NCBI RefSeq assembly: GCF_900120125.1
Contig: NZ_LT635546.1
Location: 299,228-363,227 of the forward strand
Source: Gemella massiliensis
GTDB lineage: Bacteria; Bacillota; Bacilli; Staphylococcales; Gemellaceae
Length of the DNA stretch: 64,000 nt
Direction of reading: 5' to 3'
Made by a program: the position numbers and the translations under genes. Shown piece by piece: positions 6,400 through 14,146 of this stretch. The first letter of the stretch is position 1; each line of letters opens with the position of its first letter. Under the pieces are notes generated by a model. It worked only from the letters and a program-made list of their open reading frames with translations. It had not been told where the DNA came from and searched no databases.

Positions 6400-6424
6400 G
6401 ATTCAAAATATAGGAAGGGATAAT

Positions 6425-7183
6425 ATGTCAGAACAAAAAAATTTAAAAATAAGATTATCAGTAGATTCATTCTATGATAATATTTCAAAGAATAAACAAA
6501 AGACAAAAATCAATCCAAAGGATTTAAGTAAATCTTTAGGTTATGATGAAAAAATAATAAACGAGTTCCCGGATGAAATAAATATGGGACTTTCTTGTGG
6601 AAATCCTATTCAGCATTTGAAGTTAAAAGAAGGTCAAAGTTTGATAGATTTAGGTTGCGGAGCCGGAATGGATATTTTTATTTCCAGAATGAAATATCCT
6701 AAAGCAGGAACATTATATGGTTTAGACAGATTGGATTCTATGTTGGAAAAAGCAAAAAGTGTTCGTGATAAAAAAGGATTAAAAGATATAGAATTTATAA
6801 AAGGTGAATTGATTAGTATTCCGTTAAAAGATAAGGTGGTAGATAGGGTAATAAGCAACTGTGTAATAAATTTAGAACCTGATAAGCAAAAAGTTTATAA
6901 TGAAATATATCGTATCTTAAATGATGAAGGAATGTTTGTTATTTCGGATATATTATTAAAAAAAGATTTACCGATAGAATGGAAAAATTCACAAAAAATG
7001 CACTGTACTTGAGTTGCGGGTGCTCTTCTGGAAGAAGAGATGGTAAAAATAATACAAAAAGCCGGATTTAAAAAATTTCAAATCATAAACTCTGATGTTA
7101 CTGATGAATATGCTGAAAAATGGGGATATGGCAAAGAAATGAAAGATTATATTCAAAGCGGATTGCTTATTGGTAGAAAGTAA
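6425..7183 (+). CDS. ArsM-like methyltransferase with in-frame TGA at the catalytic cysteine (candidate selenoprotein)
   Basis: SAM-dependent methyltransferase resembling arsenite methyltransferase ArsM. The SAM loop DLGCGAGMD is at residues 75-83. Two ArsM cysteines are visible: C58 in LSCGNP and C146 in ISNCVINLEPDK. Codon 196 is TGA (7010-7012). After it the same frame continues VAGALLEEEMVKIIQKAGF to TAA at 7181-7183, giving 252 codons, a normal family length. In ArsM/AS3MT the residue just before the (V/I/L)xGAL motif is the third arsenic-binding cysteine, so the TGA replaces that residue. A perfect hairpin follows the TGA. Readings: selenocysteine, or a nonsense mutation leaving a 195-residue fragment. 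GGAAGG ribosome site; 25 bases after ispA. Confidence 0.75.
7010..7039 (+). promoter_or_regulatory. SECIS-like hairpin directly after the in-frame TGA
   Basis: CTCTTCT (7023-7029) pairs perfectly with AGAAGAG (7033-7039), leaving the 3-base loop GGA (7030-7032), 18-20 bases after the TGA. Bacterial SECIS elements are short hairpins inside the coding region with G in the apical loop, roughly 16-37 bases after UGA. In E. coli fdhF the loop GG sits at about +19/+20. The arm AGAAGAG also simply encodes Glu-Glu, so chance is possible. Confidence 0.45.
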
Positions 7184-7194
7184 TAGAACAAAAA

Positions 7195-7231
7195 AAATAC
7201 GAAAGTTTAGGGATAAACTTTCGTATTTTTT
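7195..7231 (+). terminator. Terminator after the ArsM-like gene
   Basis: AATACGAAAGTTTA and TAAACTTTCGTATT form a perfect 14-bp stem with a GGGA loop, followed by T residues. It sits just after the distal TAA rather than after the TGA, which supports the full reading frame as the original gene. Confidence 0.9.
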
Positions 7232-12349: not shown

Positions 12350-13192
12350 ATGAAAAAAATAAAAATTATACTTTATATAATCACTACTTTTATATTGTTA
12401 ACAGGTTGTGCCAGTGGTGGGGCGAATAAACCTAAAAATGATAACTGGAAAGAATTTGAAAATTCTAAAAAAATAGTAATTGGTTTTGATAATACTTTTG
12501 TACCGATGGGATTTCAAGATAAAAGCGGTGCAAATATCGGTTTTGATATTGATTTGGCAAATGCTGTTTTTGCTGAATATGGAATTAGTGTAGAGTGGCA
12601 AGCTATTAATTGGGATTTAAAAGAAACAGAATTAAAAAATGGTAATATTGATTTAATATGGAATGGATATTCAAGAACAAAAGAAAGAGAACAAAACGTT
12701 TTATTTACAGATGATTATATGATTAATGAACAGGTAATTGTTACAAAGAAAACTTCCGGAATAACAAAGGTAAGTGAATTAAAAGAAAAAGTTCTTGGAG
12801 CACAGAATGGTTCTTCCGGTTACGATATTTTTAATGCAGAGCCAAAAGTTCTAAAAGATTTTGTAAAAGGTAATGATGCGACACAATACGAGAGTTTTAA
12901 CGAAGCAATAATAGATTTGGAGAATGAACGTATAGAAGCATTATTAATTGATAGAGTATATGCAAATTATTATTTAAAACAACAAAATAAATTATCAGAA
13001 TATAATATATTTAGTGCAGGCTTTGAGAGTGAATCATTTTCTGTCGGAGCAAGGAAAGCGGATAAAACACTTGTTGGAAAAATAAATTCAGCTTTTAAAA
13101 AATTATATCAAGAAAAAAATTTCAAGATATTTCGAAAAAATGGTTTGGTGAAGATGTGGCAACAAAAAATATTAAAAATAGATAATCGGTAG
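12350..13192 (+). CDS. Amino-acid ABC transporter substrate-binding lipoprotein
   Basis: A 280-residue SBP_bac_3 family protein. A signal peptide ends in the lipobox LLTGC with C20 as the predicted lipidated cysteine, to be processed by Lgt (also encoded in this window). The ligand domain shows IVIGFDNTFVPMGFQD, GFDIDLANAVF and IDLIWNGYSRTKEREQ, typical of polar amino-acid binding. It completes the three-gene importer. Confidence 0.93.
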   Translation: MKKIKIILYIITTFILLTGCASGGANKPKNDNWKEFENSKKIVIGFDNTFVPMGFQDKSGANIGFDIDLANAVFAEYGISVEWQAINWDLKETELKNGNIDLIWNGYSRTKEREQNVLFTDDYMINEQVIVTKKTSGITKVSELKEKVLGAQNGSSGYDIFNAEPKVLKDFVKGNDATQYESFNEAIIDLENERIEALLIDRVYANYYLKQQNKLSEYNIFSAGFESESFSVGARKADKTLVGKINSAFKKLYQEKNFKIFRKNGLVKMWQQKILKIDNR

Positions 13193-13217
13193 ATTTTTAA
13201 AATCTACCGATTTTTTC
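13182..13217 (+). terminator. Terminator of the ABC importer operon
   Basis: AATCGGTAGATTTTT and AAAATCTACCGATT form a long stem that includes the stop codon of the lipoprotein gene, followed by six T residues. Confidence 0.88.
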
Positions 13218-13466
13218 TATATAGAGATAAAAATTGTTAAAAGAAACAAAAGAACGTTAAATTATGGATATATAAAAGAATTTCTCATTAACTATAATAT
13301 TAAGAAATACAATAGCAGTTATGACGGTTTTGTAAGTATTAAAAATTAATAAAATCGTTGTGGATAAGTAGAACTTTTAATGGTAGAAAAAAAGATTTAA
13401 GAATGATATAATGATACAATATTAGAAGATATTTAGGAAATAAATTAAATTTTATGGAGATGAATT
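13218..13466 (+). other. Spacer with one perfect DnaA box and a promoter
   Basis: No gene is seen. TGTGGATAA at 13359-13367 is the exact complement of the DnaA box TTATCCACA, but it is alone. Near 13407-13412 TATAAT (GATATAATG) could be the -10 of the following gene; the -35 is poor. ATGGAGATGAATT precedes the next ATG and contains its GGAG site. Confidence 0.4.
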
Positions 13467-14090
13467 ATGAGAAGTGGACATATAGTATATAAAGTAAATA
13501 ATTTACAGGCTGCTGTTAAGGAATGGGAAAATAAAGGATTTGAAGTTGAATATGGCAGAAAAGAAAATCCTATTAATGCTTTGATATATTTTAGCGAGGG
13601 GGCTTATATTGAATTATTGCAAAATACGGGAATTCCTAAAATTGTAAAACTGTTAAGTAAATTATTCGGCGTAAGTAAAAAAATGGAAAGATTTCATTAT
13701 TGGGATACCTGTGATGAGGGATTATGCGGTTTTTGCCTAGAGAAAGATTTTGGCAGTTTAGACGAAGAAGTTGAGTTTTTAAAAAAGAAAGGTATAAAGG
13801 GAATATTATTTAATAACCTTAAAAGAGTTGATACAAAAGGTAGAAATTTACAATATAGATGTTTCTTTCCGGAAGGAGTAAATTTTCCATTTTTAATGAG
13901 TTATTTCAGTGTAGACCCGAAACCTATAAATTTTATCCATCCCAACGGTATAAAGAAAATAAAGAAAATTATTTTTAAGATTGATGAAGATAATGCCAAT
14001 ATATTAAGACAATTGATTGATGATGATGTACTTGAAATTATAGATGATAATAATGAAAAAGGCATAGTTTCTATTGAATACGACTATTAG
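13467..14090 (+). CDS. VOC superfamily protein (glyoxalase-like domain)
   Basis: A 207-residue cytosolic protein with a glyoxalase-like (VOC) fold. The start GHIVYKVNNLQAAVKEWENK is the typical first beta-alpha unit, and ALIYFSEGAYIELLQ supplies the second strand pair with a glutamate (E in IELLQ) that often binds metal. The second half (about 70-207) is less conserved. The function is unknown; homologues are annotated glyoxalase-like without a tested reaction. It appears monocistronic, convergent with rpsD. Confidence 0.8.
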   Translation: MRSGHIVYKVNNLQAAVKEWENKGFEVEYGRKENPINALIYFSEGAYIELLQNTGIPKIVKLLSKLFGVSKKMERFHYWDTCDEGLCGFCLEKDFGSLDEEVEFLKKKGIKGILFNNLKRVDTKGRNLQYRCFFPEGVNFPFLMSYFSVDPKPINFIHPNGIKKIKKIIFKIDEDNANILRQLIDDDVLEIIDDNNEKGIVSIEYDY

Positions 14091-14146
14091 ATTGGAGAAT
14101 TATAAAGCTTAGAAAACTAATTAATCTATTTATATTATAGTTAATG

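Follow-up and report, generated by a model that had tools for sequence, protein, structure and literature searches.

The arsM-like frame at 6425–7183 on the forward strand of a 64,000-nt stretch of Gemella massiliensis DNA (hereafter the window) opens with an ATG and contains one in-frame TGA, at 7010–7012 (codon 196). This raises the question of whether the TGA ends the gene or encodes selenocysteine (Sec). Standard gene calling stops the ORF at the TGA, leaving a 195-residue protein. The frame runs on for 56 codons to a TAA at 7181–7183, and the product has 252 residues if the TGA is Sec, as the preliminary description had proposed. Comparative sequence evidence points to the latter: the locus very probably encodes a selenoprotein, namely an ArsM-type SAM-dependent arsenite methyltransferase with SECIS-directed Sec at position 196, whose product would feed an arsenosugar-like pathway. 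The features of the locus are as follows.

6413–6420, forward strand: ribosome-binding site-like AGGAAGGG, 5′ of the arsM ATG (sequence; the same stretch lies 5′ of the G. bergeri gene).
6425–7183, forward strand: arsM-like gene, 252 codons with the TGA predicted to be read as Sec, TAA stop at 7181–7183 (translation, NCBIfam, AlphaFold).
6596–6598, forward strand: codon for C58, equivalent to CmArsM Cys72 (alignment with 4fr0; invariant column).
6860–6862, forward strand: codon for C146, equivalent to CmArsM Cys174 (alignment with 4fr0; invariant column).
7010–7012, forward strand: UGA codon 196, predicted Sec, equivalent to CmArsM Cys224; UxxG motif UVAG (alignment, Gemella comparison).
7023–7039, forward strand: candidate SECIS hairpin CTCTTCT-GGA-AGAAGAG, GGA loop at 7030–7032 (bSECIS constraints, conservation).
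7192–7231, no strand assigned: bidirectional intrinsic terminator-like hairpin just 3′ of the arsM TAA (18-pair stem with T runs).

An ispA-type prenyl synthase gene lies 25 bases upstream of the start, and the terminator-like hairpin lies directly past the TAA, which argues that the gene ends there and not at the TGA. The encoded protein is 97% identical to its G. bergeri homologue.

The best NCBIfam model for the protein, with Sec scored as Cys, was the arsenite methyltransferase model PRK11873/NF008823 (E=2.8e-66, 223.8 bits). Because this score falls below the curated cut-off of 263 bits, we class the protein as ArsM-like only in a broad sense. ArsM enzymes were also its best PDB sequence matches. 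When aligned with 4fr0, C58, C146 and position 196 correspond to Cys72, Cys174 and Cys224 of CmArsM (residue numbers counted off the printed alignment), and all three are invariant columns in a 20-sequence alignment, the third being the Sec position. The preliminary description had placed the TGA at the third metalloid-binding cysteine with the other two intact, and the alignment bears out both points. An AlphaFold model of the full-length protein had a pLDDT of 89.9 and a pTM of 0.89, and the best 13 Foldseek matches of this model were all ArsM/AS3MT. Against 4fr0 it gave a VIA Z of 23.9 over 210 residues, and Z values were 23–24 across 4fr0, 6cx6 and 5evj. The last strand of the model (243–251) comes after the UGA, and the structural alignment extends to residue 252, so the post-UGA part completes the fold.

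Compared with known enzymes, the protein shares the Rossmann SAM fold and the C72/C174/C224 equivalents of CmArsM, CrArsM and human AS3MT (4fr0, 6cx6, 5evj, 8xt7). It differs from CmArsM in the predicted Sec where CmArsM has Cys224 and, with no cysteine before C58, in lacking a counterpart of Cys44; its C-terminus is also shorter than in all three (252 versus 321–387 residues). It further matches ArsM_DUF2284_UU (NF041536), ArsM_AhpD_UU (NF041537) and MTase_UXPK_star (NF047649) with E values of 1e-34 to 1e-38. These are selenoprotein methyltransferases with the same UxxG site, but they include an additional domain and at least two Sec residues, whereas the Gemella protein has a single domain and one predicted Sec. 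Unlike in ArsM_AhpD_UU, the AhpD-like protein of Gemella is separate and adjoins the radical SAM protein ArsS.

We evaluated codon 196 across relatives. The TGA was present in eight of the nine Gemella genomes searched, the window's own included; the ninth, G004, has TGT (Cys), as does a more distant Gemella metagenome-assembled genome (MAG). Outside Gemella, TGA occurs in Ezakiella and in genome G318, with Cys in the other relatives read. This is the U/C exchange at one column that the preliminary description had named as a check. A real stop, arising by nonsense mutation or in a pseudogene, would fit the standard gene call and the single base separating TGT from TGA. Yet the Gemella genes that keep the TGA diverge by up to 177 of 735 nt (24% of DNA), and dN/dS downstream of it is 0.01–0.11 within Gemella, about as low as upstream. 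The family-like 3′ part in TGA strains is therefore under purifying selection and not a decayed remnant. Nonsense mutation and pseudogene were rejected on TGA conservation, dN/dS and the position of the terminator after the TAA; with the completed fold, the conserved SECIS and the full Sec machinery also against it, we regard a real stop as highly improbable.

The preliminary description had held that a close TGT strain, with a decayed 3′ part in the present one, would speak against Sec. What we found in G004 is an intact gene that has lost the hairpin. The tree places the Cys form of G004 inside the Sec clade (92% SH-aLRT), surrounded by Sec forms, which suggests a Sec-to-Cys replacement. Since the grouping of Gemella with Ezakiella is open to long-branch error, we make no claim of a single Sec origin for the two. 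The Sec forms also vary next to the site: Gemella carries an extra Cys two residues before the Sec (C194-T-U196), with C-G-U in G318 and A-T-U in Ezakiella. A selenenylsulfide between C194 and U196 is possible.

The candidate SECIS at 7023–7039 has a 7-bp stem and a GGA loop that starts 17 nt past the UGA, with G as the first loop base, and lies within published bSECIS limits (PMC13188914). The 17-nt hairpin alone folds at −6.1 kcal/mol and the 39 nt made up of the UGA plus 36 nt at −9.2 kcal/mol, so that the bSECIS threshold of −7.5 kcal/mol is passed with flanking pairs only. The fold z-score of the hairpin was a modest −2.0, and the 61-nt fold around the TGA gave a z of −0.99, by itself not significant. 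The SECIS signal is one of conservation and position, not of raw stability. Across eight distinct Sec sequences the hairpin is identical except for a single A-to-G substitution, which leaves a G-U pair. Codons 200–203 form the sole run of at least four codons identical in all eight, whereas over the whole gene only 24% of amino-acid-invariant degenerate codons are codon-invariant. In G004, codons 199–206 differ from the window at 6 of 24 bases and the stem is broken, as against 0–1 differences in the Sec species. Of 20000 synonymous recodings of the post-TGA codons, just 44 gave a SECIS-like hairpin as stable as this one, and 23 of the 2272 TGA triplets in the window have so stable a hairpin. 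Together with the retention of the TGA and the low dN/dS, the recoding result upholds the earlier view that a TGA at this codon is no chance event.

The same genome encodes a complete set of tRNA-Sec, SelA, SelB and SelD, all above curated cut-offs: tRNA-Sec scored 68.4 bits (anticodon TCA), and profile matches reached 595 bits for selA, 337 for selB and 370 for selD. All four genes on which the preliminary description had made its reading depend (selA, selB, selC, selD) are thus in place. SelD, YedF, SelB, a cysteine desulfurase-family protein and SelA are clustered, and selD is a selenoprotein gene itself, with a TGA at codon 15 and a hairpin whose GGG loop lies 17 nt past the UGA (16–17 nt across the genus). 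tRNA-Sec and a single-TGA selD occur in all nine Gemella genomes searched.

These genes also bear on a rival reading in which suppression at the UGA inserts an amino acid other than Sec, Trp or Cys, and for which the open and selected downstream frame would serve equally well. Against such suppression, the only natural replacement at the metal-ligand column is Cys, the genome has the SECIS as well as the Sec tRNA and SelB, and in selD and arsS, too, an in-frame TGA precedes a similar G-loop hairpin. Recoding of TGA as Trp found no support: Cys was the sole replacement seen, and each of the three genes read has a single TGA with a SECIS-like hairpin after it. Read-through by anything other than Sec accordingly has a very slim chance of being right.

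For Sec-ArsM, comparative sequence evidence indicates that SelB and Sec-tRNA-Sec very probably bind the GGA-loop hairpin 17 nt past UGA-196, with Sec inserted at the third metalloid-binding position. By homology to CmArsM, the As(III) site would consist of C58, C146 and U196, and the selenol would act there as a stronger nucleophile and a better leaving ligand during SAM methyl transfer.

The gene complement offers a candidate fate for the product. All nine Gemella genomes encode the radical SAM protein ArsS (TIGR04167), in a gene that contains one TGA. In the window genome it lies outside the window (L079:8416–9381, G000:C7), with the predicted Sec in a C-terminal SSUGGETC, six residues from the frame end counting Sec itself. 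Its SECIS-like hairpin has a GGU loop and spans and follows the stop codon, as in four other Gemella genomes. The arsS gene adjoins a TIGR04169 protein and a TIGR04283 glycosyltransferase. TIGR04283 is present in all nine Gemella genomes, and TIGR04167, TIGR04169, TIGR04282 and TIGR04283 are all found above cut-offs in the window genome; NCBI names proteins of these four types for arsenosugar biosynthesis. The preliminary description had suggested a detoxifier of arsenic, selenium or tellurium, but the gene complement speaks more for an arsenosugar-type route. From this complement we infer that ArsM is the source of methylated arsenic for ArsS and that the ArsM product probably enters an arsenosugar-like pathway with Sec-ArsS and the TIGR04169, TIGR04282 and TIGR04283 proteins, rather than classical arsenic efflux, a step less certain than those above. 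Because arsM (C7:305652–306407) is not adjacent to arsS (C7:163424–164305) and its neighbours vary between Gemella species, the pathway link is one of co-occurrence.

Two further observations concern these genes. Two split transposase-like genes, nearly identical and oppositely oriented (L079:6852–7977 and 12988–14113), flank arsS-TIGR04169-TIGR04283 in a composite transposon-like arrangement. A lipoprotein-like protein encoded about 2 kb from the tRNA-Sec gene (L074:6611–8983) joins two rhodanese domains to a TIGR04282 arsenosugar-type glycosyltransferase and has a kinase-like part at its C-terminus.

The enzyme could instead be a selenoprotein that methylates a selenium, tellurium, antimony or sulfur compound, perhaps handling the cell's own selenium. 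In the 64-kb window no ars genes adjoin arsM, and acr3, looked for in the window genome, was not found. In the Gemella MAG, a Cys-form arsM lies directly 3′ of selB-csd-selA, a sel-operon-like placement (L080:8646–11967 and L012). These points favour another substrate, but the three-cysteine ArsM site is intact, ArsM structures rank first among both sequence and fold matches, and arsenosugar-type genes are present; we consider a non-arsenic substrate unlikely. With arsenic methylation as the preferred reading, one may speculate further that the Sec machinery of Gemella, a genus associated with humans and placed in a part of Bacilli that mostly lacks Sec, is retained chiefly for organoarsenic chemistry. 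Sec-ArsM and then Sec-ArsS would act in an arsenosugar-like (or selenium/arsenic-sugar) pathway that makes a metabolite at the trace arsenic levels met in humans, not in arsenic detoxification. We advance this wider proposal tentatively, as a possibility with the odds somewhat against it.

A Sec-containing arsenite methyltransferase was reported by Fomenko et al. 2007, as cited in PMC9312934 and PMC13188914. Sec-ArsM is listed as a selenoprotein family in PMC2398784, with 41 proteins from 39 organisms counted later (Peng 2016, PMC5029168). The idea of a Sec-ArsM is therefore not new, and Gemella adds a further member. The likeness to this family (PRK11873/NF008823) lies in the ArsM-like sequence, the Sec in a UxxG at the third metal-binding Cys, the Cys relatives at the same column and the downstream SECIS; here it occurs in class Bacilli with a score under the NF008823 cut-off. 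The name Gemella was absent from the Sec-ArsM papers searched for it. Judged by title and abstract, none of the papers naming Gemella with selenocysteine or selenoproteins was on Gemella selenoproteins, and a literature search on ArsS, arsenosugar and radical SAM together returned no paper. The further finding is that a human commensal genus is predicted to combine Sec-ArsM with Sec-ArsS, a co-occurrence which suggests that the oral microbiome has an organoarsenic pathway that has gone unrecognised. Because standard gene calling truncates arsM at the TGA and the catalytic residue is lost, annotation of oral and mucosal genomes may overlook the enzyme. The genus also provides a natural experiment, in which close species have Sec or Cys at one catalytic column and the SECIS is lost alongside; with such a species pair, how far selenium benefits arsenic methylation can be tested directly.

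The surroundings of arsM differ within the genus. Its neighbour is ispA in the window genome and G. bergeri, and an aquaporin with a CobW-type GTPase in G. sanguinis, one G. haemolysans strain, G002, G004 and G005. In several Gemella species, as at L010:949–2892, arsM lies 3′ of these two genes. The upstream aquaporin might be a channel for As(III) or for the methylated products made from it. The CobW-type GTPase beside arsM (L010) is related to a CobW-related selenoprotein family.
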